From Marinifilum sp. (GTDB lineage: Bacteria > Bacteroidota > Bacteroidia > Bacteroidales > CG2-30-32-10): DNA of 45,057 nt. Position numbers and translations under genes: made by a program. Below are positions 4,112-26,524 of this stretch, piece by piece. The stretch spans positions 1 to 45,057 of the forward strand of contig DYDE01000016.1 in NCBI GenBank assembly GCA_020718065.1. Reading direction: 5' to 3'. The notes under the pieces are model-generated. The model saw only the letters and a list, made by a program, of their open reading frames with translations. It was not told the DNA's origin and did no database searches. Numbering within the stretch: position 1 is the first letter of the stretch; the number at the start of each line of letters is the position of its first letter.

Positions 4112-4222
4112 ATTATTTATGTTTAGTACTTAGTAAAAATGCCACAAATTATGAGATTAAAATTGTTGTATTAAAATCATTAAATCTGTGGCAATTCTTA
4201 GTTTGTTTTAGTCAGCAAATTA

Positions 4223-4720: not shown

Positions 4721-4854
4721 AATGTGTTTAATATTTAAGGTTAAAAAAATTAAATTAATTAAACTTCTATACAATAGATAGAATGTTTTCTACAAATTTA
4801 ATGCTTTTTGAAAAGCAAGCCTTAAAAATTTAATTAGTTTTTGCAAGAAAACTC

Positions 4855-4979
4855 AGTGTCAGATAAGAAAAACTCAAGAATGAGACTTTCGCAGTTTTGA
4901 AAATCAAGGAGTTTACTTGGGTAAACGACTGTTTTCAAAACAAGAATAACGAAATTATTGGCGTTTTATTGCTGACACT
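4855..4979. repeat. 125-nt imperfect inverted repeat (MITE/REP-like or structured RNA)
   Basis: Outer perfect arms AGTGTCAG (4855-4862)/CTGACACT (4972-4979); inner GTTTTGAAAA (4894-4903)/TTTTCAAAAC (4932-4941); apical GTTTAC/GTAAAC with TTGG loop. Confidence 0.6.
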
Positions 4980-7647: not shown

Positions 7648-7659
7648 TTTAAAAAATAT

Positions 7660-9042: not shown

Positions 9043-9191
9043 ATTTTATTTTTGGATCAAAAAAAAGTAAAAATAAGAAGGAAAAATTAAAGTTTTGGAT
9101 TTAAAATAAAAATTTGTTTCAATAATCTTGAAAAACAATAAAAAATACAATTACCATTTATCCTTGTTTTTATACAGCTCATCATTTTTTT

Positions 9192-9221
9192 ACCGTTAAA
9201 TTAAAAATCACTACCGTTTAT
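9192..9221 (+). promoter_or_regulatory. Putative LytTR-type direct-repeat operator
   Basis: ACCGTTAAA-N12-ACCGTTTAT, 21-bp centre spacing, 12 bp upstream of a TTG (-33-like) at 9233. Confidence 0.5.
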
Positions 9222-9317
9222 GTAATACCCCCTTGACTTTATAGAATTTTTAATTTTAATTTGCTTAAAAATAACAAAACAAATTATTTGTATTATTTAT
9301 TTAAAAAATTAAACAAC

Positions 9318-11420
9318 ATGAAAAAAATTTACATTTATCTTAGTTTAATGCTTTTATCAGCATTTTCATTTTCGCAATGGGCATGGCAAAATCCTTTGCC
9401 ACAAAGTAATGATCTTTGGAATGTCTATTTTACCAATACAAACGTAGGTTATGCTGTTGGAAATATTGGAGGTATATTAAAAACAACAGATGAGGGCAAT
9501 AATTGGGTTGTTCAAATAAGCGGAACAACTAAAAACTTATGTTCTGTATACTTTACCAATGATAATACCGGTTATGCAGTAGGTTATTATGGAACTATTC
9601 TAAAAACCACTAATGGAGGGGCAAATTGGTCAAATCAAATCAGTGGAATAGGTGAACAATTATGGTCTGTATATTTTGCTGATGTTAATACGGGTTACGT
9701 GGTCGGTAATAATGGAAAAATACTAAAAACAACCAATGGAGGGGCAAATTGGTCAAATCAAATTAGTGGAATAGGTGAACATTTATGGTCTGTGTATTTT
9801 GCTGATGTTAATACGGGTTACGTGGTCGGTAATAATGGAAAAATACTAAAAACAACCAATGGAGGAACAAAATGGAATACACTAATATCCAACACGAATG
9901 TTGCCTTAAATTCGGTTTGTTTTACCGGTATCAATACCGGATATGTAGTAAGTGATCAAGGAGACATATTAAAAACGACAGATAGCGGAGCAAACTGGAT
10001 TTCTCAATCAGTAACATATTCATATTTAAATTCGATATATTTTATCAATGACGATACAGGTTATGTGGCAGGTGGCAATGGTGAAATTTTTAAAACCACT
10101 GATAGTGGGGAAAGCTGGCTACCTCAAATTACTAGTTTATTTTCCAGGTTATATGCTATTTTCTTTTCCAATGCAAGTAATGGTTATGCAGTTGGACAAG
10201 GAGGTGTTATATTAAAAACAAACGATGGTGGCAAAAACTGGAAGAATACAATTAATTCAAATAAAGATTTATTAGATGTTTATTTTACGAATGAATATAC
10301 TGGCTATGCTGTCGGTGGATTTACACATGCTCTTGAACCACCATATTCCTATACTGAAAGTAAAATTTTAAGAACAACAAATGGAGGAATTGATTGGACA
10401 GACCTGAAGTGTGATGCAAATAAGTATTTATATTCTGTTTACTTTACCAATGATAATACCGGTTATGTTGTAGGTGATAATGGAACTATTCTAAAAACCA
10501 CTAATGGAGGAACCAACTGGATATCACAAACCAGTGGCACAAATAAACATTTATATTCTGTTTATTTTACAGATTCTAATACTGGCTATGCAGTTGGAGG
10601 ATTAAATCTGTTTCATAATAAAAATGGAATCATTCTAAAAACGACCAATGGTGGCAATAATTGGGTAGTTCAAGCAAATCAATTAAGTGAATGGCTAGAG
10701 TCTATTTACTTTATCGATGCCAATATTGGTTATGTGGCTGGAGGAAAGGGAAATATCTTAAAAACAACTAATGGTGGAACGAACTGGGCATCTCAAATAA
10801 GTGGAACAAATATAAACTTAAATTCTATCGTATTTCCTGAAATCAATACAGGTTATGCGGTTGGATGGGATGGGGTAATTTTAAAAACAACAAATGGAGG
10901 AACAAACTGGTTGACACAATCAAGTGGAGTATTAAACTGGTTTGAATCAGTTTACTTTTCTGATACAAATACTGGTTATGTAGTAGGTGACTGGGGGATA
11001 ATTTTAAAAACAACAAATGGAGGAACAAACTGGATAAACCAAGAAAGTGGGGCACAAAATTTTTTAGCTGATATACACTTTACTGAAGCAAATATAGGCT
11101 ATGTGGTTGGCGGATTTGGGACCATTCTTAAAACAACCAACGGAGGTGCTTCTTTTGTTGAAGAAAAAAAATTACAGGAATCCATTTTTAATCTTTATCC
11201 CAATCCTTCAAACAACAAAATCACCATTTCAGTCATTAGAGATTCTCAAAAGAAAATGATTGTAAGTATTTATAATATACAAGGCGAGCAGATATTATAC
11301 AATACTTTTAACAATCAAAACTCAGTGGAATTGGATGTGAGTTCTTTGGCAAAGGGAGTTTATTTGGTTAAAATACAAAGCAAGGAAGGATTTGGAGTTA
11401 AGAAGTTGGTAGTAGAATAG
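9318..11420 (+). CDS. T9SS-sorted YCF48/BNR-like repeat protein
   Basis: 14 copies of an approximately 41-aa NTGYVVGxxGxILKTTNGGxNW repeat; C-terminal NLYPNPSNNKITISV...AKGVYLVKI sorting domain; start trimmed to MKKIYIYLSLMLLSAFSFS. Confidence 0.88.
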   Translation: MKKIYIYLSLMLLSAFSFSQWAWQNPLPQSNDLWNVYFTNTNVGYAVGNIGGILKTTDEGNNWVVQISGTTKNLCSVYFTNDNTGYAVGYYGTILKTTNGGANWSNQISGIGEQLWSVYFADVNTGYVVGNNGKILKTTNGGANWSNQISGIGEHLWSVYFADVNTGYVVGNNGKILKTTNGGTKWNTLISNTNVALNSVCFTGINTGYVVSDQGDILKTTDSGANWISQSVTYSYLNSIYFINDDTGYVAGGNGEIFKTTDSGESWLPQITSLFSRLYAIFFSNASNGYAVGQGGVILKTNDGGKNWKNTINSNKDLLDVYFTNEYTGYAVGGFTHALEPPYSYTESKILRTTNGGIDWTDLKCDANKYLYSVYFTNDNTGYVVGDNGTILKTTNGGTNWISQTSGTNKHLYSVYFTDSNTGYAVGGLNLFHNKNGIILKTTNGGNNWVVQANQLSEWLESIYFIDANIGYVAGGKGNILKTTNGGTNWASQISGTNINLNSIVFPEINTGYAVGWDGVILKTTNGGTNWLTQSSGVLNWFESVYFSDTNTGYVVGDWGIILKTTNGGTNWINQESGAQNFLADIHFTEANIGYVVGGFGTILKTTNGGASFVEEKKLQESIFNLYPNPSNNKITISVIRDSQKKMIVSIYNIQGEQILYNTFNNQNSVELDVSSLAKGVYLVKIQSKEGFGVKKLVVE

Positions 11421-11455
11421 CTTTAATAAATTCGCTAAACTATTAATAGTATAAA

Positions 11456-11490
11456 CAAAGAAACCATCGTTTCATGCGATGGTTTCTTTG
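11456..11490. terminator. Bidirectional terminator hairpin
   Basis: Perfect 14-bp arms CAAAGAAACCATCG/CGATGGTTTCTTTG, 7-nt loop, between convergent genes. Confidence 0.8.
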
Positions 11491-11515
11491 CTTTATTTAT
11501 ACGTTTTTTAATATT

Positions 11516-13570
11516 TTACCAAATATTTGCTCTGCTATTAATGTCTTTAAACAATTTATCTGCTGAAGTTATTTCGGGAAATGCAGCATAGAATTCAGGC
11601 ATATTATAAACTATGCCCAATACTCTGAATTTTGCAGGAGAATGTACATCTTCCTTCACCAATCGTACCATTGCTTTGTCACGAATGTTCTTTTTCCAAA
11701 CCTGTGCATAGCTTAAAAAGAATCTTTGATTTGGAGTGAATCCTTCAATTTTGGTATCTTTATTTTTTGCTTCATCGGTCAATTGAAATGCAGCATACGA
11801 AATGGTTAAACCACCCAGATCGGCAATATTTTCACCAAGGGTTAGTCTTCCATTCAATTTAATGGTATCAATAGCTACAATATTGTTGAATTGTTCCACC
11901 AAAACATCTGCTCTTTTATTAAACTCATCTGCATCAGACTTTGTCCACCAATCGCGAAGATTACCTGTTTTATCAAATTGTCTGCCTTGGTCATCAAACC
12001 CATGGGTCATTTCGTGTCCGATAATAGCACCAATTGCACCATAATTTGCAGCATCATCTGCATTCATATCAAAGAAAGGCGGTTGCAAAATCCCGGCTGG
12101 GAAAACAATTTCATTTTTATCAGGACTATAGTAAGCATTCACCGTTTGAGGTGTCATTTCCCATTCATTCTTATCAACTGGTTTTCCAATTTTATTCATT
12201 TCAAATGCTGTATTAAACTTGCTTGCTTCAAGCACATTTTCAAGATAGGATGTTTTTGTAATGTTGATACCCGAATAATCTTTCCATAAGTCTGGATATC
12301 CTATTTTAAAATTCATGCCATTCAATTTTTCAATAGCTTCAATTTTTGTAGCACTGCTCATCCATGCAAGATTCTCAATCCTGACTTTCATGGCTTTTTT
12401 CAGATTTAAAACGAGTTCTGTCATTCTTTTTTTGGCAGCTGGTGGAAAATATTTTTCAACGAAAAGTTGTCCAAGCAATTCTCCCAATGCACCATCTGTT
12501 TCATTTAAAACTCTTTTCCATCTTGGACGTATGGTTTTTTGTCCATATAGATAGGTCCCATAAAACTCAAAACGAGCAGTAATAAAGTCTTTAGTAAGAT
12601 AAGAAGCATAACTATTGAGTAAATTCCATTTAAGAATTATTTTCCAATCATTAACACTGGTTTCTTTTAGTATCGTATTAAATCCTTCGATAAACTTTGG
12701 CTGACATATATTTATTTCATTAATTTCAGGATGCTTTAATGTGGTAAATAATAATTTCCAATTATAATTGGGGCAGAGCTTTTCTAATTCAATAATGGTC
12801 ATTTTATTGTATCTCTTATTAGGATCTCTGTTTTCAAGTCTGGTGTTTGACACCAATGCAAATTTCTTTTCAATATTGAAAATGATTTCTGCATTTTTAA
12901 CAGCTTCAGTTTCTACAACACCTCCAAGAACTAATATTTTTGATATGAACTTTTTATATTCTTTTTGGATTTCTATGGTAGTTTCATCTTCATTTACGTA
13001 ATAGTCTCTGTCAGGTAAATTCATTCCCCCTTCCCAAAGTTGGGCAATTACCATATTGCTGTTTTTTTGATCGGGTGATGCAAAAATTGTAAAAAAAGGG
13101 TTGCTTCCGAATGTTGCATAATGTGCACTCACCTTTTCAACATCATTTATTGTTTTTATGCTGTTGATCAAATCAAATTCTTTTTTTAAAGGAGTAGCAC
13201 CTGCTTTATCAATTGCTATAGTATCCATACCTGCCAGATAAAAGTCTCTAATTTTTTGGGCACTACTGCCTTTTGGTGCAGTGGTATTTTTTACAGTTTC
13301 TTCCATTATATCTTTAAGGGCAAACTGATTAAAATCATCCAATTCTTCACCAGATCCATACATTATTTTATCATCTGGTATGGGATGGTTTTTCAACCAA
13401 CCTCCATTGGCATACTGAAAAAAATCATCACCAGGTTTTACACTTAAATCCATATTGGTTTTTGATAACACTTGAGGTTTGTTTACTGTTTGGGAGTTCA
13501 ACTTTTGATTAAACATACACATTATTGACATACTCATAACAATAGTGCTAATTAAAATTTTGTTTTGCAT
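11516..13570 (-). CDS. M13 family metallopeptidase (neprilysin/PepO-like)
   Basis: GAIIGHEMTHGFDDQG (HExxH), ENIADLGGL, INSRANIW C-terminus; signal peptide. Confidence 0.95.
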   Translation of the reverse strand: MQNKILISTIVMSMSIMCMFNQKLNSQTVNKPQVLSKTNMDLSVKPGDDFFQYANGGWLKNHPIPDDKIMYGSGEELDDFNQFALKDIMEETVKNTTAPKGSSAQKIRDFYLAGMDTIAIDKAGATPLKKEFDLINSIKTINDVEKVSAHYATFGSNPFFTIFASPDQKNSNMVIAQLWEGGMNLPDRDYYVNEDETTIEIQKEYKKFISKILVLGGVVETEAVKNAEIIFNIEKKFALVSNTRLENRDPNKRYNKMTIIELEKLCPNYNWKLLFTTLKHPEINEINICQPKFIEGFNTILKETSVNDWKIILKWNLLNSYASYLTKDFITARFEFYGTYLYGQKTIRPRWKRVLNETDGALGELLGQLFVEKYFPPAAKKRMTELVLNLKKAMKVRIENLAWMSSATKIEAIEKLNGMNFKIGYPDLWKDYSGINITKTSYLENVLEASKFNTAFEMNKIGKPVDKNEWEMTPQTVNAYYSPDKNEIVFPAGILQPPFFDMNADDAANYGAIGAIIGHEMTHGFDDQGRQFDKTGNLRDWWTKSDADEFNKRADVLVEQFNNIVAIDTIKLNGRLTLGENIADLGGLTISYAAFQLTDEAKNKDTKIEGFTPNQRFFLSYAQVWKKNIRDKAMVRLVKEDVHSPAKFRVLGIVYNMPEFYAAFPEITSADKLFKDINSRANIW

Positions 13571-14166
13571 AAATAAATAGTTTTATAATTTAATTAATTA
13601 TTATTGTTTATTTTAATTTCTTCTTTTAACATTTTCCAGCATCCCCTATTGTGAGGGAATGTGGAAAATATTAAGTTGATATGAAAAAGCATTATTCTTG
13701 GAACAAATTTGATAATAATTAAATTGTTTTTAAAATGAAATCTACCATTTTGTTAAAATAATCGATGATTGCATTTGTTAAAATAAATGCCATTTAAAAT
13801 GGAAATATTTTAAACTATTTAGTAAAAACAAAACCACCAAGACTCTCAGTTAAACTCCTTTGAGAAAATAAAAAATTATCTGCATACTATATTAATAATT
13901 AAAACAAAAATGCTTTTCAACAATTGAAACTTTAGTAAGAGGTTATATTAAAAATATTTATCAGTAAATATTGTTAAAGCCTTATATATTTCATTCATAC
14001 AAACCACGACATAAAGGTCGTAGCAATATTGTTAATAGCTCTTACATTTAAATTGAGGAAAAAAACAATAGATTAGGACTTAACCCTAATACGATATTCT
14101 TGTAAAACTAATTTTATGCGAAATCCACTGCATCAAATTAATTATCTTCAAAACGCTTTATAGCAA

Positions 14167-14280
14167 AATTCCTATGCTAAAATTCTTCCCAGCAAAACGC
14201 CGGAATAAATTCTTACGTCAAAATGTTCTCTGGGAATTTCCCAGAATAAATTCTTACGTCAAATAGTTCTCTGGGAAATT
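14167..14280. repeat. Three-unit tandem repeat, 41-bp period, in a gene-free gap
   Basis: AATTCcTAtGctAAAAT..(14167), AATTCTTACGTCAAAATGTTCTCTGGGAA(14208), AATTCTTACGTCAAATAGTTCTCTGGGAA(14249); embeds dyad TCTGGGAA-T-TTCCCAGA. Confidence 0.65.
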
Positions 14281-14725
14281 AAAAGTCAAGGGGCATTTAT
14301 TCATGCTTTTGTTTTATTTAGTGTTTAGGATTCGCATTGCATAATTGTAAAGCTGTCTGGAACATTGTTGATTATGCGAATAAACACAACAATATAAGAG
14401 TATTTTGAGCCTTAAAAACATAGGTTTTTTATAATAATATTAGAAATAGGATTAAGTAATAAAATAAATTTGTTCTTTGAAGTCGTTTAAATGTTTGTCT
14501 CGAAGCATTTAAGATTTTCATGAATTCTTGGTGTTCCTGCCTTCCGAAAAGGTCGGTTTGTTTTGTAGAAAAAAAATCTTAAAAAACATATTGATATGAA
14601 ATCTTTTAAATTAATAACCTTTTTGAATTATAAATTTCAAACAACCTCTAAGTAAACAACTTTTGTTTTATCACATGCAACTATAAAAATCAGACCAATC
14701 AATCAAAAGCATCTGCAATAAAATT

Positions 14726-15052
14726 TCAATCATTATTAAGCATTCTATTATTAAGAAAAGAAAGGGCAACTGAATTTATTTCTCCAGAATACCCTTTATA
14801 AACCTTTATTCCAAATTTAATACAAACCTCTTCGGCATAATCAGGTATTGAGCCTGCAAGCATAATAGTTACTCCTTTCTGTTGCATAATTAAAGGAATA
14901 TTATTTTTGCAATCGCAACCCTGAGGTGTACATAATATTTCCGAATCAATAATTTTGATGGATGCATTAACTGAAAATATTGTAAAGACTTCACAATAAT
15001 TTAAGTTTTCGTCAAGTAAACTACCAATAGTTGGTATTACGATCTTCATCAT
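14726..15052 (-). CDS. NifX/NifB-like dinitrogenase Fe-Mo cofactor-binding family protein (divergent)
   Basis: MKIVIPTIGSLLDENLNYCEVFTIF..QGCDCKNNIPLIMQQKGVTIMLAGSI; shares fold motifs with 17534..17920 but lacks the HFGH segment. Confidence 0.8.
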   Translation of the reverse strand: MMKIVIPTIGSLLDENLNYCEVFTIFSVNASIKIIDSEILCTPQGCDCKNNIPLIMQQKGVTIMLAGSIPDYAEEVCIKFGIKVYKGYSGEINSVALSFLNNRMLNND

Positions 15053-15123
15053 AATGATTTTTCCTTTCTTTAATTTATAATTGAGAATGAAAATCTGAAA
15101 GAATAAAAGATAGTGCTAAAATT

Positions 15124-15527
15124 TCATGCTAACTGACTGAAATGTTCTTTAAAACCAATAGGAATAGGTTTGTTTGAATCATCAATTGCTGCAAAAGTAA
15201 AAAGTGCATTGACAGCTTTTTGTCTGTTTTCAGTATACATATCTTCAATATAAATTTCTACCTGAACTTCGATAGTTGCATTTTTTGTTTTGAAAATTTT
15301 ACCAATAATCTCTGCAATAGTGCCCGATTTAACAGGAAGAAGAAATTGCACTTTATCAGATGAAACGGTTACCATTTTTTTCTAGTGAAGCGTGTTGCTG
15401 TGATATAAGCTACTTCATCCATCCATTGCATGGCGGTTCCTCCAAATAAAGTGTCATGGTCATTTAAGGTGGAAGGAAAAATGACTTTAAACTGTCTTGT
15501 TTCAGATTTTTTTATACTATCATTCAT
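15124..15527 (-). CDS. Acyl-CoA thioesterase (hotdog), split into two frames at an A7 run; -1 slip restores the full-length product
   Basis: ORF 15369..15527 (MNDSIKKSETRQFKVIFPSTLNDHDTLFGGTAMQWMDEVAYITATRFTRKK) and ORF 15124..15375 (MVTVSSDKVQFLLPVKSGTIAEIIGKIF...) form one contiguous hotdog domain. Confidence 0.75.
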
Positions 15528-15531
15528 GATG

Positions 15532-15565
15532 AAAATTATTTTGTACAAACGTACAAAATAATTTT
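15532..15565. promoter_or_regulatory. Perfect 15-bp inverted repeat, putative operator
   Basis: AAAATTATTTTGTAC-AAAC-GTACAAAATAATTTT in a divergent intergenic region. Confidence 0.7.
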
Positions 15566-15594
15566 TGATTATGAACGTAAGTTCATTATCTTTG
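15564..15594 (+). promoter_or_regulatory. Bacteroidetes-type promoter with operator dyad in the spacer
   Basis: TTTG (15564-15567)-N19-TATCTTTG (15587-15594), matching TTTG/TAnnTTTG; dyad ATGAAC-GTAA-GTTCAT at 15571-15586. Confidence 0.65.
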
Positions 15595-15634
15595 TCAAAA
15601 TATTTATTAAATAGTTTTATAATTATAATAAATA

Positions 15635-16060
15635 ATGGCAAGACCAGAGAAAAACAGAAAAATTTGTCAACCACCAAAAATGAAAGGATTTAAACCTTTT
15701 GGCATACCATCCTGTAAAATTGAGACCATCAGGTTGACATTTGAAGAATATGAGAGCATCAGATTGGTGAATTACGAAATGTTGCCTCAGGAAAATGCTG
15801 CAGAACAGATGAATGTTTCGCGACCAACTTTGACCCGCATCTATAATAAGGCATTAAAAATCATTGCAAAAGCATTTGTTGAAGGGAAAGCCGTAGAAAT
15901 TGAAGGGGGTAATTATCAATTTGAACAAGACTGGTTTAGGTGTAAGAAATGCCACAAACTTATAGAAGGACTTGATAATCATGTTAAATGTGAAAAATGT
16001 CCATTTTTTGATGAAAACGAATTGATAAGTTTAAATCAAATAGTAAAGAATAATAAATAA
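15635..16060 (+). CDS. DUF134 family HTH protein with C-terminal zinc-ribbon-like CxxC pairs
   Basis: MARPEKNRKICQPPKMKGFKPFG..IRLTFEEYESIRLVNYEMLPQENAAEQMNVSRPTLTRIYNKAL; CKKC...CEKC. Confidence 0.92.
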   Translation: MARPEKNRKICQPPKMKGFKPFGIPSCKIETIRLTFEEYESIRLVNYEMLPQENAAEQMNVSRPTLTRIYNKALKIIAKAFVEGKAVEIEGGNYQFEQDWFRCKKCHKLIEGLDNHVKCEKCPFFDENELISLNQIVKNNK

Positions 16061-16109
16061 ACATTCAATCACACAATTTAAAATAAAATAACATATAAAA
16101 GTTTACAAA

Positions 16110-17291
16110 ATGAATAAAGAAAATTCAGGTTTTAGTACCAAATTAATTCATGCAGGGGAAATACAAGATCAGTTCGGGTCAGCTACAGTACCAATTTATC
16201 AAACTTCAACATTTTCATTTAAAAGTGCCGAAGAAGGAGCAAAATGTTTTGCAGGAGAAAGTGACGGATACATTTATACACGAATAGGAAACCCAACCAT
16301 CAATGCTTTAGAAGAACAAATTGCCATATTGGAAAATGGGTATGGAGCAATTGCAGTAAGTTCCGGAATGGCAGCTGCAACAACTATTTATCTTTCATTG
16401 TTAAGCTCAGGCGATCACATTGTGAGTACTGATGCCATATATGGGCCTGCCCGTGGTGTAATGGAAAAACAATTTGTCAGGTTTGGTTTTCAATCTACTT
16501 ATATCAATACTACAGATGTTGAAGCAATAGAAAAAGCGATACGTCCCAACACCAAGGTTTTGTATATAGAAACACCGGCCAATCCAACCATGGACATTAC
16601 AGATTTGAAAGCTTGTGCAGAAATTGCCCATAAACATAAAATTTTATTAGTTGTGGATAATACTTTTTGCAGTCCATATTTGCAAAATCCACTGGATTTG
16701 GGAGCAGATGTTGTTTTTCATTCAATGACGAAATTCATTAATGGACATGCTGATATAGTTGCTGGTATAATTATTACCAAAGAAAAAAATCTATATCATC
16801 AGTTAAGGACGATGATGATCAATATGGGTTGCAACATGGACCCACATCAGGCATATATGGTATTGAGAGGGTTGAAAACTTTAGCTATCCGTATAGACAG
16901 AGCGCAAGAAAATGCGATGAAAGTTGCCGAATTTCTTGAAAAACATCCAAAAGTAGCATGGTTAAAATACCCTGGATTAAAATCACATCCACAATATGAA
17001 TTGGGAAAGAAACAAATGAAAGGCGATGGTTCGATGATCAGTTTTGGGTTAAAATCAGGTTATGAAGGTGCAAAAACATTAATGAACCATGTTCATCTGG
17101 CACTTTTAGCAGTTTCGTTAGGAGGTGTGGAAACACTCATACAACATCCTGCCTCTATGACCCACTCAAAAGTTTCGAAGGAGGATAAACAAAAAGCGGG
17201 TATTACTGACGATTTGATTCGATTTGCAGTTGGTATTGAGGATGTAAATGATATAATTGAAGATCTAAAACAAGGATTAGAAAAATGCTAA
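16110..17291 (+). CDS. Trans-sulfuration PLP enzyme, methionine gamma-lyase-like
   Basis: GFSTKLIHAG, YTRIGNPTINALEEQIAILE, SGMAAATT, VVDNTFCSPYLQNPLDLGADVVFHSMTKFINGH (PLP lysine). Confidence 0.92.
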   Translation: MNKENSGFSTKLIHAGEIQDQFGSATVPIYQTSTFSFKSAEEGAKCFAGESDGYIYTRIGNPTINALEEQIAILENGYGAIAVSSGMAAATTIYLSLLSSGDHIVSTDAIYGPARGVMEKQFVRFGFQSTYINTTDVEAIEKAIRPNTKVLYIETPANPTMDITDLKACAEIAHKHKILLVVDNTFCSPYLQNPLDLGADVVFHSMTKFINGHADIVAGIIITKEKNLYHQLRTMMINMGCNMDPHQAYMVLRGLKTLAIRIDRAQENAMKVAEFLEKHPKVAWLKYPGLKSHPQYELGKKQMKGDGSMISFGLKSGYEGAKTLMNHVHLALLAVSLGGVETLIQHPASMTHSKVSKEDKQKAGITDDLIRFAVGIEDVNDIIEDLKQGLEKC

Positions 17292-17322
17292 TATTTCAGA
17301 ACCTTTACTAAAATTACACATT

Positions 17323-17532
17323 ATGCCAAAATTAGACCACACAGGACCAGAAGGTAAGGGTCCAAAAACAGGAAGAAAGCTCGGTAAATGCCATAAAAAC
17401 GAAACCGATTTTAAAGAATCCGGCGAATTGGGAATTGGACAAGGGGAACGCCGACATGCAAAGGATTCAAATTCACAAGGTAAAGGAAAACGACTAAATT
17501 ATTTTAAAACATTATTAAAAAAAGGAGAATAA
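17323..17532 (+). CDS. DUF5320-like small protein
   Basis: MPKLDHTGPEGKGPKTGRKLGKC N-terminal Gly/Pro motif. Confidence 0.7.
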   Translation: MPKLDHTGPEGKGPKTGRKLGKCHKNETDFKESGELGIGQGERRHAKDSNSQGKGKRLNYFKTLLKKGE

Positions 17533-17533
17533 A

Positions 17534-17920
17534 ATGAAAATTGCAGTACCGGTAACTGAAAATTACCAAATTGATGACCATTTTGGTCATTGTGAATATT
17601 ATGGAATATATACTATTTCAGAAAAAAATGAAATAACAAATGTTGAAAAATTAGAATCGGTACAAGGATGTGGTTGCAAATCGAATATAGCTACTGTGCT
17701 ATATGAAAATGGAGTGACCATTATGCTTGCAGGTGGAATAGGAGGCGGTGCAATAAATGTTTTAAACAGCGTTGGAATAGAAGTTATACGCGGTTGTTCT
17801 GGAAATGCAACAGAGGTTGTAAAATTATTTATTGAAGGAAATATCAGTGATAGTGGTTCTAATTGCCAACAACATGAAAATCATCATGAAAATGGACAGA
17901 ACCATGTTTGTAATCATTAA
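17534..17920 (+). CDS. NifX/ORP-like iron-molybdenum cofactor-binding family protein with His/Cys-rich tail
   Basis: MKIAVPVTENYQIDDHFGHCEYYGIYTI..QGCGCKSNIATVLYENGVTIMLAGGIGGGAINVL..; tail CQQHENHHENGQNHVCNH. Confidence 0.9.
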   Translation: MKIAVPVTENYQIDDHFGHCEYYGIYTISEKNEITNVEKLESVQGCGCKSNIATVLYENGVTIMLAGGIGGGAINVLNSVGIEVIRGCSGNATEVVKLFIEGNISDSGSNCQQHENHHENGQNHVCNH

Positions 17921-17964
17921 CATTTGAGTTGTATTTTACTTTTCATCCTTAAAAATTTGCAATA

Positions 17965-18819
17965 ATGGATAACAAACATATAGGAAATTCCAGTATAAAG
18001 GAAAAGCCCAGTGATGTTTTAACATATATGGGGAGCCCTTTTAGAAAGAATTCATTATATGGTGTCAAGAGAATTATTGCAGTTGCCTCAGGTAAGGGAG
18101 GTGTTGGCAAATCAACCGTGGCAGCTAACCTTGCAATTGCACTTGTCAATAGTGGCAAAGATGTAGCTATTATAGATGCCGATATTTATGGACCATCCAT
18201 ACCTCAATTATTTGATATTGAAAATGAGCTACCAAAAGAAACAATTGATGGTGCAAAAAAAATGATGATACCTATTGAAAAATATGGGGTTAAAATTATG
18301 TCAATAGGTTTTTTTAAAACTAATAATAAAGGGTTATATTGGCGTGGATCGATGGCAGCAAATGCAATATTACAGCTTGTAAAAAACACAAAATGGGGAG
18401 AAATTGACTATATGATAGTAGATTTTCCTCCAGGAACAGGCGATATACAACTAAGCTGCCTTCAAAAAATAAAATTTAGTGGAGCAATCATTGTCACCAC
18501 ATCGCAAGAAATTGCACTTTGTGAAGCCAGAAAAGCAGCATCTATGTTTACCCACTATGAAATTGAAGTACCAATACTTGGTATTGTAGAAAACATGTCA
18601 TGGTTCATATCAGAAAAACATCCGGATGAAAAAAATTATTTGTTTGGTAAAGATGGTGGAAGAAAAATTGCCTCTGAATTGAAAACAGTGCTACTTGGAC
18701 AAATACCTTTGGTGAAGGAGGTTGGTGAAGCCACAGAAAAGGGGAATAGCGTTTTAAGTCAAAAAAACAAGATTATAATATCTGAATTTAATAAAATAGC
18801 CAATTTTTTGCTTTCGTGA
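17965..18819 (+). CDS. Mrp/NBP35-family P-loop ATPase (Fe-S cluster carrier-like)
   Basis: Deviant Walker A GKGGVGKST, DADIYGPSIPQLF, VDFPPGTGDIQL, VENMSWF; no CPxC motif after VENMSWF. Confidence 0.93.
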   Translation: MDNKHIGNSSIKEKPSDVLTYMGSPFRKNSLYGVKRIIAVASGKGGVGKSTVAANLAIALVNSGKDVAIIDADIYGPSIPQLFDIENELPKETIDGAKKMMIPIEKYGVKIMSIGFFKTNNKGLYWRGSMAANAILQLVKNTKWGEIDYMIVDFPPGTGDIQLSCLQKIKFSGAIIVTTSQEIALCEARKAASMFTHYEIEVPILGIVENMSWFISEKHPDEKNYLFGKDGGRKIASELKTVLLGQIPLVKEVGEATEKGNSVLSQKNKIIISEFNKIANFLLS

Positions 18820-18867
18820 AAAATATCATATACCAGATTTTATTGAATTATAAATGGTTAAAAAGAA

Positions 18868-19143
18868 ATGTTTAAAGAGAAAAGAATTAACAAAACACAT
18901 TTGCCAGTAATTGACATTTCAAAATGTAGCAATTGTGACTTGTGTTATATTGCATGCACTTATGGTACTATAAATAAAAGAAACAGTATGGCATGTGCAA
19001 AATGCATTAAATATTGTTTTTCTATTAATGTCCCATGCAACCCTGAACATTATGTATTCGATTATAAGCATTGTAATGCATGCGGTTTATGCATTTCGGT
19101 GTGCAAAAACAAAGCAATTTTTTGGTATAAGATTAATGGCTAA
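18868..19143 (+). CDS. 4Fe-4S ferredoxin-type protein
   Basis: CSNCDLCYIAC and CNACGLCISVC motifs plus an additional central CAKCIKYC...C. Confidence 0.88.
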   Translation: MFKEKRINKTHLPVIDISKCSNCDLCYIACTYGTINKRNSMACAKCIKYCFSINVPCNPEHYVFDYKHCNACGLCISVCKNKAIFWYKING

Positions 19144-19177
19144 GGTTAAAAAATTGATCATTAATACTATAAACTTA

Positions 19178-19211
19178 TGCTATATTAAATTACAAATAAT
19201 TTAATATAGCA
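19178..19211. terminator. Perfect 15-bp hairpin between convergent operons
   Basis: TGCTATATTAAATTA-CAAA-TAATTTAATATAGCA. Confidence 0.55.
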
Positions 19212-19336
19212 ACAATCGGATCTCTTTAATTTAAATAATACATATTTGCAAAGATTAGTAAAATTCAATGAAAAGAATTGCTCAGAAAAATCTGTTACAA
19301 ACCAATGTGTCATCAAATTGTATTTAAGTGAATATT

Positions 19337-19732
19337 TTAAACAGTTTTTGTATATACCTCAAACAAAGGTGGCATAGCAATATGCTTTTTAACAGCACAT
19401 AAATTGGCGACACTAATTAAAGCATCCTTATATTTTTCGGGGAAATCGGAAGGAATTTGAATCTCAATATTGATATCGCTGACCATTTTGGTAATTTCAT
19501 CCACAAAGATTTCCTGAACAATTTTTATGTTTTCGGTTGGTAGTTTGCGTTCGTTGCAGAATGACTTTACATATATGCCGGCACAAGTGCCAATGGATGC
19601 CAAAAACAAATCAAAAGGAGAGGGAGCAGAAGCATCCCCTCCTTTACTAACAGGTTGGTCTGTTTTTACAACATAGCCATTTATGTTGGCATTCACTTTT
19701 TTGTTGCCTGCAAAAGTTACTTCAATTTTCAT
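19337..19732 (-). CDS. OsmC family protein
   Basis: GGDASAPSPFDLFLASIGTCAGIYVKSFC; second Cys in ANLCAVKKHI. Confidence 0.9.
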   Translation of the reverse strand: MKIEVTFAGNKKVNANINGYVVKTDQPVSKGGDASAPSPFDLFLASIGTCAGIYVKSFCNERKLPTENIKIVQEIFVDEITKMVSDINIEIQIPSDFPEKYKDALISVANLCAVKKHIAMPPLFEVYTKTV

Positions 19733-19757
19733 AAATTCTTAAATTAACATAATTACT

Positions 19758-20828
19758 TTAACAACAAGATTTCAAAGTGGTCATTTCTGGTTTACCCAAG
19801 TCTTCGCCATTTATACCTTTAAATTTATCTTCGAGAATATAAGGATATCCCATTTTATTGAGCAAAGGAACCACATCTACCTGATGTACCTGCAAGCCAA
19901 TATCCCATGGATTGTACCCAAGAATTAAACCTGCCAATTCCTCATAGGTGAGAACAGGTATTCCATATCCTTTATCATCATAGGTTTTGCCTTCCATCTC
20001 AGAGATCACATATTGCCATCTATCCATAAAAAAAGTGCAACCCGGACAGTTGGCAATAATCAAGTCGGGTTTGTAATTCTTCATAGATTCAAATTTTCTT
20101 TTGGTATTGGCAATGGAGTATCCCCTATTTGCTTTGATGAGGTATTGCCTGAATCCAAATCCACAACAATGTCTTCGTTCTGGATAATCGACCTGAATGC
20201 CTCCCCACTCATCAATTAAACCAGCCAAAACATAAGGATATTCAGCACCTCCAACTCCTTTGTCGGGAAATATCTTGGCATAGTGGCAACCAATATGTTC
20301 TACTACTTTCAAAGGTTTACCGGTTTCTTTATTTATGAGGCTGAATTTTGCTTTATCAGATATTTCTTTTCTGAATTTGAAAATGATATCGCTGGTATGA
20401 ACCAGGTTTTTAGGAATAGTAAATGTTTTGCCCGTAGAATCTAATAATAGTTTTCTGATTTTTACTTCCAAAGCGGGATTGTGCTTCCATGTTTCCAACA
20501 CTTCGGTATAAATACCGAAAGAAGTAACACAGGAACAAACAAAATTTTCATAACCGGCTTCGGTCATCAGGGCAAACTGACGGGCAACGACTGTCATGGT
20601 AGTTTCCATAGGAACAATGCCTGAGTGATAGGCTATACCGGTACAAGTAGTTTGTTGCGGATCGTCGAAAATATCTTTATGTAATTCGTTTTTCAGGATT
20701 TTTAAAAACAATTCTTCAGCGGCAGGAAAGAAGTTCTGACGGATACAACTCCTTGCAAAATAATAATGATCTTCAGCAATATCTTTCTGATAAGTCGACC
20801 ATAGTTTTGATACCCCTTCTTTTATCAT
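19758..20828 (-). CDS. HdrB-like CCG-domain protein (heterodisulfide reductase B family)
   Basis: Second CCG motif GCHYAK..RRHCCGFGFRQYL..NCPGCTFFMDR; degenerate first motif CTGIAYHSG..CSC. Confidence 0.88.
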   Translation of the reverse strand: MIKEGVSKLWSTYQKDIAEDHYYFARSCIRQNFFPAAEELFLKILKNELHKDIFDDPQQTTCTGIAYHSGIVPMETTMTVVARQFALMTEAGYENFVCSCVTSFGIYTEVLETWKHNPALEVKIRKLLLDSTGKTFTIPKNLVHTSDIIFKFRKEISDKAKFSLINKETGKPLKVVEHIGCHYAKIFPDKGVGGAEYPYVLAGLIDEWGGIQVDYPERRHCCGFGFRQYLIKANRGYSIANTKRKFESMKNYKPDLIIANCPGCTFFMDRWQYVISEMEGKTYDDKGYGIPVLTYEELAGLILGYNPWDIGLQVHQVDVVPLLNKMGYPYILEDKFKGINGEDLGKPEMTTLKSCC

Positions 20829-21526
20829 ATCTTATCTTTTTTTGTGTTATAAACAGATTTAAAATAATCGTTGTTGACACCTTCGCCATATTCAACTCCA
20901 AGTTCTTTGGCTTTCATTTTGGAATATCTTTCTATCTTCGCGAAGCGTTCAGTTGCTCCAGTGATATCGAAGATACGCTGCAGATCGTTGAGAGATTCTT
21001 TGGAAGTATTGCGTAATGTGCCAGCACCTTCGTGTTTGTAATTGGTGCCAAGTCTTTTTAAAACTGAAGAGGAATTCTTTTGCATCCATTCCCATACAGG
21101 ACCCTGTTCGGGATACATTTCAGTATTAACTTCATCAATATAGACACAGTACCCGTGTTTAAGAATATGTTCACCTATGGTACGTTTGAGGGCTAATTGT
21201 TGCCTGCCTTTTTCAGACTCTGTAAAATAGCCTAAATCAGTGGATAAAGCCCGTAAAGCCTGAATAATATAACCCGGGACATTGCTTCTGGGACAACGGG
21301 TTTTGCAGGACAAACACTCGCCACATTGCCAGATGGTATCACTTTTGAGCAATTGTTCAATCTCGTCGTTGTTTTTATGCTGAACAGTATCCACCACCAA
21401 TCGGGGGTCATAATCGTAAAACTGTGCAGCCGGACAAATGGCAGTACATGTACCACAATTGATACAAGCATTCATCCCTTCCATAAACCGGATGTCTTCA
21501 GTTAACTTATGATATAAGTTTTCCAT
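20825..21526 (-). CDS. HdrC-like 4Fe-4S protein
   Basis: CINCGTCTAICP and CGECLSCKTRCP; ATGA-type 4-nt overlap with the HdrB-like gene. Confidence 0.9.
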   Translation of the reverse strand: MENLYHKLTEDIRFMEGMNACINCGTCTAICPAAQFYDYDPRLVVDTVQHKNNDEIEQLLKSDTIWQCGECLSCKTRCPRSNVPGYIIQALRALSTDLGYFTESEKGRQQLALKRTIGEHILKHGYCVYIDEVNTEMYPEQGPVWEWMQKNSSSVLKRLGTNYKHEGAGTLRNTSKESLNDLQRIFDITGATERFAKIERYSKMKAKELGVEYGEGVNNDYFKSVYNTKKDKI

Positions 21527-21538
21527 ATTGTGATTTAA

Positions 21539-22345
21539 TTATTTAATATATCCTATTGAAAAAACATCCCAGCCATTTTCTTTTGCCATTTGCATGGCAG
21601 GCTGCTTTTGCATAATGGCTCCACCCCAAAAATTGTGGTCATATATATGAGGTGTTTTAAACCAACTTTCAATATTCATAATGATTTGGATCTCCTTTGT
21701 TTCATCTTTATTAATTGTAAATGATGAAGCTGGAAGATTTACTTTAAAACTATTATCAACGTAGGCAATTATTGAATCAGTATTTATTATATTGTTTTTA
21801 TATATCTGCCCAATTCCCATATGGAAATTAAATGGGGCATTTTGATTACTGCTATTTTTCCAGAAACCATTTATCATTAGTAAATGATAACCACCTCCCA
21901 ATATATCGGGCCACATCATATTCACTTCTGGCGGATTAACAAACATAAATGATTTATTTTTCTCACTTCTAATACCAAAAACAAAGGTGATAGAATCGTA
22001 ATTTCCCACAGTAATATTATCATATATATTCCAGATTTTGGTATCAGGGATATCCTCATCAATATAATGTATCTCTTTCCATTCATTAATTGTTTTTGTT
22101 GAACCATCAGATTTATGTAGGTTAATTTCAGAAACAAAATACTTAATTTCAGAAACAGAATAATGATTACCAGCAGCATTCACATATTTCATTGAATCTT
22201 TTTGCAGTGGTTGTCCATCAACAAAATGGGTAAATTTAAGAATAAGCTTTCCCGTTCCAGTAATTGGCTCAGGTTTGTGTTTTTTACAAGAACAGAAAAC
22301 CAAAATACTAAAGATAAGAATTAGAATAAGTTTATATTTTAGCAC
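21539..22345 (-). CDS. MbnP-like lipoprotein
   Basis: Lipobox LVFCSC; GTGKLILKFTHFVDGQPL, YSVSEIKYFVSEINL, FVFGI, MMWPDILGGGYHLLMINGFW, FNFHMG motif series typical of the MbnP family. Confidence 0.85.
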   Translation of the reverse strand: MLKYKLILILIFSILVFCSCKKHKPEPITGTGKLILKFTHFVDGQPLQKDSMKYVNAAGNHYSVSEIKYFVSEINLHKSDGSTKTINEWKEIHYIDEDIPDTKIWNIYDNITVGNYDSITFVFGIRSEKNKSFMFVNPPEVNMMWPDILGGGYHLLMINGFWKNSSNQNAPFNFHMGIGQIYKNNIINTDSIIAYVDNSFKVNLPASSFTINKDETKEIQIIMNIESWFKTPHIYDHNFWGGAIMQKQPAMQMAKENGWDVFSIGYIK

Positions 22346-22347
22346 TT

Positions 22348-24468
22348 TTAAATATTTACGATAAAATTAATAAAAAACACCCTACCAGGTTCATAAAGTT
22401 TTTCGGTACTCCCAATAATCTTCCTATTCAGATGTTCATAATAAGGCCGATCCAAAATGTTATTAGCACCTACTGTAATATTAAAATATTTTAAAGGTTT
22501 GTAATTGACAGAGAAATTAAGTAACCCAAAACCAGAAGTTTCCATTTCATAAAAAGCATCTGACACACTTTTTTGAGATGCCACTAATCTGAAAGATAAT
22601 TTTGGAACCAATTTGTTGTTAAAAATTTTGTAATAAATAGAAATTGTTGATTCAAATGGTGGTATTTCAGGTAAAGGGTCGTTCTTGATCTCTTCTTCAC
22701 CAGTAACCTGATTATTAGTGATAATATATTTTGTTATTGTAACAGCGAAAGCCTGAGTATAAGCAGCAACTAGAGATACACCTAATTTATAATTTTCAAT
22801 GCTATTGAAGCCGAACTCAAAACCTCTGAAAAAGGCGAGGTCTATATTTGTAAATTGTTTTACCCCCAATGCTCCCTGCGTGGAAGGGTTAGCAATGGAA
22901 GGAGGTAATTTTTTACCAGAGATATAATCCGAAACATAAGAATAAAATCCATTCAAATACATATTCCCTAATATTTCATTCTTATACAGGAAAGTTAAGT
23001 CTGCCTGGTAATTGGTTTCTGGTTTCAAGAGAGGATTTCCAATATAATCATAATTATCGAAACCAACAGTCATAAACTTAATATACCTTTCAAGCATATT
23101 AGGACTGCGCACTCCCCTGCCTAAAGCAATGCTGATAGAAAATGATTTTGACAATTCGGTAGTAGCTCCGATACTACCACTTAAATTAAAATATTTAGAA
23201 CTATTGTTTTGAAAATATGAAATATCATCTCTAATAATCTTCAACGTATCGGCTGAAGAAGCATAATTGTAATCTCCCCTTAATGAAAGAATAAAATTAA
23301 AATTTCTGATATTTTTTTTTAGTTCTGTAAACAAACCAGTATTCTGTATTTTTGATTGGAGCCAAACATTTGTTTTTTTTGTAGATATAGTAGTTAAAGT
23401 ATCCATCGTCATTTTCATTGTCATCGATTTTGTGCCGTCTTTATATATGTCCTCATAATCTACACCAACATTTATTAATAATGATTTACTCTGCAAGTAT
23501 GACAATTCCATTCTTCCTCCTCTATTCGTAGCATCAACCATGGTCTTTGCTTGCATGGTAGCATAATTGGCTCTTTTGGAATTATCCATAACATGTTTCA
23601 CTTCTGAATTATATGCTCCAATGGTTAGTGATTTATATTTTTCAGATAGATTTGTTGCCTGATAATTAAAAGAAGTAATATATGTATCATCACTAACTTC
23701 ATCCATTGGCAAAGCGGAGTATGAAACATCTCTACCATGATCTTCCATATATGATAAATAAATGGTATGGTTTTCTTTTGGGGAATAGCCGATACTTCCA
23801 TTGTAATTGTATTTCTTGAAAGATGATTTAATCATCTTATCATTTCCATCATGATAATTACCATAGTTTTTATATCCACCTGCAAGGTTGAAGAAAATAG
23901 AATTATTACCACCATAGAGAGAAAGATGTTCACGCTGTCCATTCCAATTGGTTTCAAAACCATACAATGCCTTGGCATGTATTTCAAATTTATCGAAAGG
24001 TTGTGCTTTAATTGTTTGAATGTTTATAGTGCCTCCTAAAACAGATCCATATTTTAATACATATGGACCTTTAATTACTTCCATTTTTTCTATTTCTTCC
24101 GCTTCGATGTGCGATGTAACAGGATCCATGCGACTAGGGCATCCACCTTCAATTTTGATACCATCATTTAAAACCACATTAATCTGGCTTGCTCTAAAAC
24201 CTCTGACAACTGGATCAATTGCAGCTCCACCTTTTCTAACTCCTGATACATTTGGTGTTGTGCGAAGAAAATCACCAATATCGCGGATGGCGGTTTGCTC
24301 AATATCTAACTTGCATATCTTCGGAGATAAGTTGTAGTATGGTAATTTACTTTCAATCAAAACCTCTTTAAGAGGAATAATAGTATCATCAGCTATTTGT
24401 GCCGATAAATTGTATGTAATATTTAGTAAAATTACAAATACAACAAAAATTAGTTGATATTTTTTCAT
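22348..24468 (-). CDS. TonB-dependent receptor, OprC/NosA-like (putative copper)
   Basis: Signal peptide; plug with GGCPSRMDPVTSHIEAEEIEKMEVIKGPYVLKYGSVLGGTINI; C-terminal aromatic beta-barrel signature. Confidence 0.9.
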   Translation of the reverse strand: MKKYQLIFVVFVILLNITYNLSAQIADDTIIPLKEVLIESKLPYYNLSPKICKLDIEQTAIRDIGDFLRTTPNVSGVRKGGAAIDPVVRGFRASQINVVLNDGIKIEGGCPSRMDPVTSHIEAEEIEKMEVIKGPYVLKYGSVLGGTINIQTIKAQPFDKFEIHAKALYGFETNWNGQREHLSLYGGNNSIFFNLAGGYKNYGNYHDGNDKMIKSSFKKYNYNGSIGYSPKENHTIYLSYMEDHGRDVSYSALPMDEVSDDTYITSFNYQATNLSEKYKSLTIGAYNSEVKHVMDNSKRANYATMQAKTMVDATNRGGRMELSYLQSKSLLINVGVDYEDIYKDGTKSMTMKMTMDTLTTISTKKTNVWLQSKIQNTGLFTELKKNIRNFNFILSLRGDYNYASSADTLKIIRDDISYFQNNSSKYFNLSGSIGATTELSKSFSISIALGRGVRSPNMLERYIKFMTVGFDNYDYIGNPLLKPETNYQADLTFLYKNEILGNMYLNGFYSYVSDYISGKKLPPSIANPSTQGALGVKQFTNIDLAFFRGFEFGFNSIENYKLGVSLVAAYTQAFAVTITKYIITNNQVTGEEEIKNDPLPEIPPFESTISIYYKIFNNKLVPKLSFRLVASQKSVSDAFYEMETSGFGLLNFSVNYKPLKYFNITVGANNILDRPYYEHLNRKIIGSTEKLYEPGRVFFINFIVNI

Positions 24469-24666
24469 AATAATTATAAAGAGAATTTTATTTTTTTTGT
24501 TTTTTCGATGTAAACATTATTTAATTCTTTATTATATGGAATAAATTAGTATTTTAAATCAAAAACCAATAAAGAAAAGATATTAATAAAGTCCATTAAA
24601 ATTCAAGCAAAATTGATTATACAATAATTTATTGCTGAAAGTTCATCGTTTCTAGTCTCTATAATC

Positions 24667-24684
24667 TATATATATATATATATA
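24667..24684. repeat. (TA)9 microsatellite
   Basis: TATATATATATATATATA in the intergenic region. Confidence 0.9.
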
Positions 24685-24745
24685 CTATGATAATTAAAAC
24701 CAAGCTCAAACTCATGTTGCATAGAAGGTAATTTAAGTGTTTTTA

Positions 24746-26524
24746 TTACGCATTCGATTTTACATAGTTCACCATACCTTTTGAGTCGAATATTGCCATT
24801 AATTTTGCTGGTAATGGGGAGAATTTAAATTGTTTACTCCCAACCAAAACAACACCTTCTGCATAGTTAATAGAAACCTTGTCCCCCTGTTTATAATTAT
24901 CAACAGCTTCTGGCAAAACAATTATAGGCAAACCTTGGTTAACAGATGAGCGATAAAATATTCTGTTTACAGATTTACAAATAACAGCTTTAATACCTGC
25001 GTATGCTAACCCAACAGATGGATGTTCGCGGGAACTACCACAACCAAAATTTGCACCAGCAATTATAATATCATTTGGTTTTACTCGTTCAGTAAAACTG
25101 TCATCAAATCCTTTAAAAAGATAAGGCATTATTTTATCACCTTCCGAACTATTAATGTTATATGTTAATTTTCCAGCGAACATCTGATCAGTATTAAGAT
25201 TATCAACATCAGCATAATGCCATGTGTTTTCAGCATACCTATCTTCACCTTGTTTAATTTCAACAGTCTTGCTTTGCTCGGCAGCATAGGGGAATTTATC
25301 ATTTGCAGTAATGCCCCTTGGGTCTATAATCTCACCTTTAACAGCAGAAAGCGCCACCGTAGCAGGTGAAGCAAGCCATATATTGGCATTTTTATTACCC
25401 ATTCTTCCAAGAAAATTGCGATTTGCTGTAGAAATAACATTATAACCATCTGCAGGAATACCTTGACCAGTTCCCAAACAAGGACCACAAGAAGGAGAAA
25501 GTATGTTTGCACCAGCATCGAAAAAGATCTTTATCAAACCTTCATCCATTGCGAGCATATATATCATTTGTGAAGCAGGAATAATCAAAAGCTGAACATC
25601 TTCATAGACTTTTTTCCCTTTAAGAATTTCTGCAGCAATTCTTAAATCTTCAATTCTTCCATTGGTGCATGTTCCAATTAAAGCTTGATGTAATTTAGTT
25701 CCTTGAACTTCCGAAATAGCTTTTACATTATCAACATTGTGTGGACATGATGCTACTGGAAAAATACTATTTAAGTCAATTTCAATTTCTTTAAAGTATT
25801 TTGCATCCTCATCAGCCCAAGTACCCTGTATTTTTTCTCCTAAAAATTCACTTAGTATGTCATCTGAAGGGAAAGCAGCATTTTTCGCACCCATTTCAGA
25901 AGCCAAATTAGCTATTGTCATTCTATCAGAAATGGAAAGTGCTTTTACACCTTCACCATGATATTCGATTGACATATAATCTGCTCCGCTTGAACCAATC
26001 ATTCCAATAATCCATAAAGCTAAATCTTTTGCATAAACTCCTTTTTGAAGTTTCCCTTTTAAGGTTATTTTAACTGACTCAGGAACCCTAAACCATGTTT
26101 CCCCTTGTTTCCACAACCCTGCAGTTTCAGTTCTGTCTATTCCTGCTGCAAATGAATTAAAAGCTCCTGCAGTACAAGTATGACTATCACTACCTACAAT
26201 TATCATATTGGGTTTTGCATAAAAAGAAACCAACTGATGACATATTCCTTTTCCAACATCATGAAACTTTTTAATACCTTGTTTTTTTACAATATTCCTG
26301 ATTTTCTGATAATCATTTGCAAGTTTTTCGTTTGTTGGTGGAGCATTATGATCAAGAATAATTAATATTTGCTCAGGAAAAGCAACCTTTTCACCATTCA
26401 TTTTTTTAAAAGTACTTTCTATACTTGCTGTATTATCGTGCGATAACACAATATCCGGTTTTTTAAATACAATACTTCCAGTCTCAGCTCCTAATATTTT
26501 TTCGGCAAATGTTTTTCCTTTCAT
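24746..26524 (-). CDS. Aconitase-superfamily dehydratase (homoaconitase/isopropylmalate isomerase-like), large and small subunits fused
   Basis: VGSDSHTCTAGAFNSFAAGIDRTE, IGTCTNGRIEDL, SPSCGPCLG, then swivel domain GANFGCGSSREHP. Confidence 0.93.
   Translation of the reverse strand: MKGKTFAEKILGAETGSIVFKKPDIVLSHDNTASIESTFKKMNGEKVAFPEQILIILDHNAPPTNEKLANDYQKIRNIVKKQGIKKFHDVGKGICHQLVSFYAKPNMIIVGSDSHTCTAGAFNSFAAGIDRTETAGLWKQGETWFRVPESVKITLKGKLQKGVYAKDLALWIIGMIGSSGADYMSIEYHGEGVKALSISDRMTIANLASEMGAKNAAFPSDDILSEFLGEKIQGTWADEDAKYFKEIEIDLNSIFPVASCPHNVDNVKAISEVQGTKLHQALIGTCTNGRIEDLRIAAEILKGKKVYEDVQLLIIPASQMIYMLAMDEGLIKIFFDAGANILSPSCGPCLGTGQGIPADGYNVISTANRNFLGRMGNKNANIWLASPATVALSAVKGEIIDPRGITANDKFPYAAEQSKTVEIKQGEDRYAENTWHYADVDNLNTDQMFAGKLTYNINSSEGDKIMPYLFKGFDDSFTERVKPNDIIIAGANFGCGSSREHPSVGLAYAGIKAVICKSVNRIFYRSSVNQGLPIIVLPEAVDNYKQGDKVSINYAEGVVLVGSKQFKFSPLPAKLMAIFDSKGMVNYVKSNA

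Follow-up and report, generated by a model that had tools for sequence, protein, structure and literature searches.

A NifX-type protein encoded in a genome in which nitrogenase genes were not found raises the question of what its neighbouring genes form with it and what controls them. We addressed this question for a locus at positions 14726-24468 of a 45,057-nucleotide stretch of Marinifilum sp. (contig DYDE01000016.1; the window hereafter means this whole stretch), which consists of a divergent unit and a convergent run of genes. The source assembly comprises 4.08 Mb in 206 contigs and is 90% complete, and its relatives are Bacteroidota. With a probability of about 45%, we read the locus as a metal-sulfur/thiol module of two facing operons that is controlled by DUF134 (UPF0251), a predicted DNA-binding regulator, and is combined here with copper acquisition. 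The gene set is a variant of NifX/Mrp sets known from anaerobes, and what is new is the candidate DUF134 operator and regulon.

The case for control by DUF134 starts from three elements between the divergent genes:

15571..15586, + strand: putative operator palindrome ATGAACGTAAGTTCAT, an exact copy of ATGAAC-N4-GTTCAT upstream of DUF134
15587..15594, + strand: TATCTTTG, a predicted -7 promoter box (TAnnTTTG) directly abutting the operator
15532..15565, no strand assigned: perfect inverted repeat with 15-bp arms around GTACAAACGTAC (15543-15554), read directly from the sequence

Searching genome contigs for NifX1, one of the two NifX-like proteins of the locus, yielded 80 loci, in which open frames were called and then clustered; palindromes were counted in the window plus 98 related loci (1.395 Mb), designated by L numbers. 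The palindrome occurs 56 times in this set, 49 of them directly before DUF134, the thioesterase or c8, a family of small membrane proteins. As a control, 119 palindromes with permuted half-sites were found 0.13 times on average (maximum 2) and never at those positions; the copies come partly from related species, so that not all are independent, and the permuted controls share the same relatedness. The 4-nucleotide spacer is specific, since spacers of 0-3 and 5-9 gave 0 or 1 copies. Counted by gene, the palindrome is present at 49 of 59 DUF134 genes, and the copy at 15571-15586 is the sole exact one in the source genome. In 50 of 64 sites, a TAnnTTTG box is found at a constant distance from the palindrome, and TATCTTTG is such a box, which we take to be the -7 promoter box of the Bacteroidota type. 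These patterns argue strongly for a predicted DUF134 regulon.

The protein that binds the palindrome as a regulator is probably DUF134 itself, because its distant paralogues in L117, L119 and L124, which are 44-46% identical to that of the window, keep the half-sites unchanged. Tandem copies of the palindrome about 30 bp apart are also found in these three loci, and the repeat around GTACAAACGTAC lies 30 bp from the exact palindrome and is probably a second operator that has diverged. We found no functional or binding-site study of DUF134/UPF0251 in the literature searched.

Beyond DUF134, the palindrome also lies before the genes for a Cys/Met-metabolism lyase dependent on pyridoxal phosphate (PLP; L082 and L104), OsmC (L103 and L109) and a methyltransferase (L117 and L120). 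Away from NifX1, it heads the series c8-DUF134-lyase-peroxiredoxin (L243) and c8-lyase-peroxiredoxin (L244) as well as operons of DUF134 with a small NifX (L244, L248 and L255); the PLP lyase shares this operator in L082, L104 and L243. Palindromes inside coding sequence (L247 and L257-L259) were judged to be chance occurrences. The c8 proteins (e.g., L087 6884-7195 and L243 5136-5372), which have a conserved cysteine and no Pfam match, are often encoded first after the operator. An Rfam scan of 13500-25000 gave no match, and scans for sigma-70-type promoters and terminators yielded about as much as shuffled sequence.

The genes of the locus are as follows:

14726..15052, - strand: NifX2, a NifX-like paralogue (PF02579, 37.3 bits)
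15124..15527, - strand: 4HBT acyl-CoA thioesterase, frameshifted (PF03061 on the 3' part)
15635..16060, + strand: DUF134/UPF0251 predicted DNA-binding regulator with a CxxC...CxxC tail (PF02001, 79.9 bits; weak second match to Sigma70_r4, 21.6 bits)
16110..17291, + strand: Cys/Met-metabolism PLP lyase (PF01053, 522 bits)
17323..17532, + strand: DUF5320 small protein (PF17253, 41.9 bits)
17534..17920, + strand: NifX1, predicted metal-sulfur cluster protein (PF02579, 72.8 bits)
17965..18819, + strand: short Mrp/NBP35-type ATPase (PF10609, 288 bits)
18868..19143, + strand: ferredoxin with two Cys-rich motifs of the 4Fe-4S type (PF00037, 36.2 bits)
19337..19732, - strand: OsmC-like protein (PF02566, 51.2 bits)
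19758..20828, - strand: HdrB-like subunit (NF041780, 139 bits)
20825..21526, - strand: HdrC-like 4Fe-4S subunit (NF041779, 99.6 bits)
21539..22345, - strand: MbnP-family lipoprotein, predicted copper binder (PF20243, 91.1 bits; TIGR04052 below its cut-off)
22348..24468, - strand: OprC-type TonB-dependent copper receptor (best match in the Protein Data Bank, PDB: Pseudomonas OprC, E 7e-34)

The initial annotation, which ended the locus at 19143, had placed its eight genes correctly and in the right families, as profile matches confirm, and had stopped short of the OsmC, HdrB, HdrC, MbnP and receptor genes with which the set continues. The short gaps that it reported on the + strand are real: from DUF134 through the PLP lyase, DUF5320, NifX1 and Mrp to the ferredoxin, they measure 49, 31, 1, 44 and 48 bp. 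The - strand run from the receptor through MbnP, HdrC and HdrB to OsmC, which faces this operon, is spaced by 2 bp, 12 bp, a 4-bp overlap and 25 bp. The divergent thioesterase that it named is present, with its reading frame split at a run of seven adenines (about 15369-15380); copies in relatives are intact, and the break reflects an indel of the assembly or a gene that has recently become a pseudogene. Upstream of the receptor gene, 24746-26524 encodes a protein of the aconitase/3-isopropylmalate dehydratase family with the large and small domains in a single chain.

What might NifX1 carry? The protein has the motifs HFGHC, GCGCKS and RGCSG and a disordered Cys/His tail (residues 109-128). 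Eight residues, H16, F17, G18, C20, C46, C48, C88 and C111, do not vary among 39 aligned NifX1 proteins, and H19, H124 and C126 are almost invariant. The histidine of the HFG motif is a cofactor ligand in NafY (H121; PMC8496260), and H35 binds NifB-co in NifX (PMC13128457). Retention of this His-Phe-Gly ligand and of the invariant cysteines makes it plausible that NifX1 binds a metal-sulfur cluster. NifX2, the only other PF02579 protein found in the source genome, has NLN in place of HFG and hence no ligand histidine, as judged by alignment with NifX1 and the L067 copy; it keeps the equivalents of Cys20, Cys46 and Cys48.

The AlphaFold model of NifX1 (pLDDT 79, pTM 0.72, with residues 109-128 at low confidence) has 2yx6 and 1o13 as its closest matches, followed by NifX (9ian), orange protein (ORP; 2wfb) and NafY (1p90). 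Like the NifX/NafY chaperones (PMC8496260, PMC13128457), NifX1 combines this fold with a cofactor-binding HFG histidine, but it differs in its extra invariant cysteines and Cys/His tail, and identity in the structure matches is 19-20%. The absence of nitrogenase genes noted in the initial annotation holds for the source genome, in which, at about 90% completeness, nifH had no match over the cut-off; a role in FeMo-co (the iron-molybdenum cofactor) was rejected on this basis. The thioferrate-storage protein IssA belongs to the same domain family, but its tail is cationic, rich in glycine and aromatic residues and about 70 residues long, whereas that of NifX1 is short and Cys/His-rich (PMC5524996).

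A link to copper comes from the - strand run. The residues C110, M114, H292 and M294 of the receptor align with the copper ligands of OprC (C143, M147, H323 and M325; PMC8610252), so that the CxxxM-HxM site is complete. Homology to OprC/NosA extends along most of the length (PMC8610252), but the receptor is distant from them: it scores 249 bits against TIGR01778 (cut-off 472), which is still its best-scoring model, and by that measure it is a distant member. It also differs in being encoded with MbnP and HdrBC and in that no NosZ was found in the source genome; copper import for nitrous oxide reductase was rejected as its purpose, since NosZ was found in only 2 of 14 genomes examined.

We surveyed the receptor in a NifX1-selected set of 49 genomes and a phylum-wide sample of 396. 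Seven of the 49 have a receptor at about 50% identity or above (one of them in two frames), and none of this class was found in the 395 other genomes of the phylum, where the best match reaches 38%. In four of the seven, the receptor is linked to NifX1, directly after it at 18-46 bp in L055, L059 and L067 and at 4.6 kb in L128; with a chance of linkage of about 0.2% (10 kb of 4-7 Mb), four of seven gives about 1e-9. In L055, genes for an RND efflux system come after a NifX1-receptor-MbnP operon. MbnP alone means little as a marker of the module, because its homologues occur in 65 of the 396 genomes, mostly without NifX1. A second TonB type near NifX1 (L070, L085 and L123) was rejected as a copper receptor, as it has no CxxxM and its best models are haem/zinc receptors.

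Across the 80 loci, with neighbours counted within 6.5 kb of NifX1, the commonest is DUF134 (51 loci, above chance), followed by methyltransferase (22), OsmC (18), DUF5320 (13), PLP lyase (10), HdrC and TrxR (9 each), HdrB and Mrp (8 each), thioesterase (7) and the CxxxM receptor (4). The neighbourhood conservation that the initial annotation had proposed as a check is thus seen for DUF134 and NifX1; the six-gene order of the window in identical form was found in none of the other loci, the cargo between DUF134 and NifX1 being variable. L069, for example, has the order DUF134-HdrC-lyase-ferredoxin-NifX1. L067 carries nearly the full gene set: a thioesterase gene on the - strand is followed by a run of 13 genes (1970 to 11653, spaced by -17 to 63 bp) that begins with DUF134, small NifX, NifX2, HdrC and HdrB, continues with DUF1847, lyase, methyltransferase and a gene for a small exported protein, and ends with NifX1, copper receptor, MbnP and ferredoxin. 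Members of both window operons are therefore united in a single operon of another genome. Plasmid spread was discounted, as there were just six matches, each below 60% identity and all in plasmids typed non-mobilizable.

The close HdrB type is limited to the source genome among the 396 sampled. This genome also has a second HdrC-HdrB pair (L212, G000:C11, 112-5213) that is unlinked to NifX, with an HdrB 67% identical to that of the window, and is followed by HdrA-like, HdrC-like and HdrD/E-like genes. Genes resembling cytochrome bd oxidase subunits or ECF (extracytoplasmic function) sigma/anti-sigma/periplasmic metal-sensor genes adjoin NifX1 in L103, L105, L107, L109, L113, L127 and L128.

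The PLP enzyme had been called methionine gamma-lyase-like, which stands at the family level: its best PDB relatives are methionine gamma-lyases, and it shares with them the fold family, the PLP lysine region and the overall length. Of the criteria for methionine specificity, Cys116 and the Lys240-Asp241 pair (PMC11568061), it has neither, Cys116 being proline (YGP instead of YGC), and it scores 507 bits against a TIGR01328 cut-off of 549.7. By these residues, it is not a canonical methionine gamma-lyase. The enzyme does travel with the module, with a lyase in 10 of the 80 loci and, in some, under the shared operator. Release of sulfide or a thiol is plausible, and the role of local sulfide source previously assigned to it is possible. 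In L055, a 69-residue C-terminal lyase remnant (7573-7782) between DUF134 and DUF5320 suggests recent loss of the lyase there.

On the reading that we prefer, DUF134 at the palindrome abutting the -7 box would set the expression of its own gene, of the thioesterase/NifX2 unit and of the lyase-to-ferredoxin operon. NifX1 would hold a metal-sulfur cluster through His16 of the HFG motif and the invariant cysteines, for which the PLP lyase may supply sulfide or a thiol. Electrons, or the reduction of disulfides, would come from the ferredoxin and HdrBC, the short Mrp would hydrolyse ATP to load or release the cluster while carrying no CXXC-bridged cluster itself, and OsmC may guard thiols. In this variant, copper would reach the periplasm through the OprC-type receptor and MbnP, which makes it the probable cargo or regulated metal, in the form of Cu-S or mixed Cu-Fe-S. 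No inner-membrane copper transporter was identified here. A narrower version, in which NifX1 is a cytoplasmic copper-sulfide or Cu-Fe-S protein fed by OprC and MbnP and switched by a metal-sulfur-sensing DUF134, possibly through NifX, seems to us unlikely. Several observations weigh against the copper part. The type of cluster is not readable from sequence, and 76 of the 80 NifX1 loci lack such a copper receptor nearby. A gene of the heme-copper-oxidase family elsewhere in the genome could be the copper user. Moreover, no palindrome precedes the copper receptor operon in the window, which may thus lie outside the DUF134 regulon.

The Mrp ATPase bears on two other explanations. It has the deviant Walker A motif GKGGVGKS near the N-terminus (Mrp/NBP35 pattern GKGGhGK[ST]), no N-terminal FSCA domain, and SEKHPDEK in place of the CXXC by which MrpORP holds the cluster that it transfers (PMC6345978). 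Short Mrps encoded at close NifX1 loci lack the CXXC as well, as do 19 Bacteroidota Mrps examined, so that a simple Fe-S carrier role cannot be assumed. Although it is the sole Mrp found in the source genome, we rejected a housekeeping role: in a tree, it is one of nine short Mrps, eight of which are encoded at NifX loci, that form a clade with support of 100/99, apart from the 356-404-residue Mrps of relatives. General Fe-S assembly or repair, with NifX1 and Mrp as a split MrpORP serving HdrBC, the ferredoxin and others and with the copper genes separate, has some appeal, because NifX1 scores 59 bits and Mrp 241 bits against the respective halves of the MrpORP model (cut-off 450; the two genes are separate, without fusion), a Di-Nase domain can hold a [3Fe-4S] cluster and MrpORP acts in Fe-S transfer (PMC6345978), and the copper receptor is missing near most NifX1 loci. 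Set against this are the missing CXXC and the operons that NifX1 shares with the copper receptor in L055 and L067, and we consider it unlikely, if deserving attention. The initial annotation had proposed a diverged ORP locus making a Mo-Cu-S cluster. The window does resemble the Desulfovibrio orp/MrpORP system in that divergent operons of an anaerobe encode NifX-fold proteins, an Mrp/NBP35 ATPase and ferredoxin-type proteins (PMC6345978); NifX1 shares the ORP fold, and the presence of a copper receptor also speaks for this view. However, ORP is just the 11th structural match (E 4.4e-5), and a fold this common gives no specific pointer to it. The paired ferredoxin-inserted ATPases (Orp3/Orp4), the MrpORP fusion and the Mrp CXXC are all absent from the window, in which the DUF134 palindrome, lyase, OsmC, HdrBC, copper receptor and MbnP are extra. 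Genuine ORP-type loci are separate loci in Bacteroidota (L044, L048 and L250), with a CXXC-bearing Mrp at 310-314 bits to MrpORP or with paired ferredoxin-ATPases (e.g., L250). Membership in the Desulfovibrio ORP system was thus rejected and the Mo-Cu-S reading has become very improbable, while the copper link that it implied gains independent support from the full OprC site and the NifX1-linked receptors.

Two further explanations shift the centre of the module. NifX1 could act as a sensor: by binding a metal or a metal-sulfur species, it would control DUF134, the enzymes being the response. DUF134 is its most frequent neighbour, and a Roseburia plasmid (NZ_CP135163.1; L261 3662-4396) encodes a single protein that joins DUF134 to a NifX domain, which has HFGH and a tail rich in Cys/His. 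Yet the fusion is one record from another phylum, and several NifX1 genes have no DUF134 nearby, which leaves the sensor role doubtful. The fusion gene lacks ATGAACN4GTTCAT, and another palindrome, ATTGACATATGTCAAT, overlaps its likely -35 region. Alternatively, the locus may serve thiol/peroxide and sulfur-compound stress, with the lyase, OsmC, peroxiredoxin, HdrBC and thioesterase central and NifX accessory. This role is favoured by the lyase-peroxiredoxin sets that lie directly under the operator in L243 and L244 and by the frequencies of OsmC, HdrC and TrxR near NifX1, but NifX1 is found where most stress genes are absent, and NifX1 and DUF134 persist while the cargo varies; we give it little credence. 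Our preferred reading remains a metal-sulfur/thiol module under DUF134 control, set apart by this analysis from the look-alike ORP system.

DUF134, a family of unknown function, thereby gains a specific candidate operator and a candidate regulon of metal-sulfur, thiol and electron-transfer genes in anaerobic-type Bacteroidota and some Ignavibacteria. In addition, the NifX-fold protein encoded in an operon with a complete OprC site may offer a route to the question of which cluster a non-nitrogenase NifX carries.

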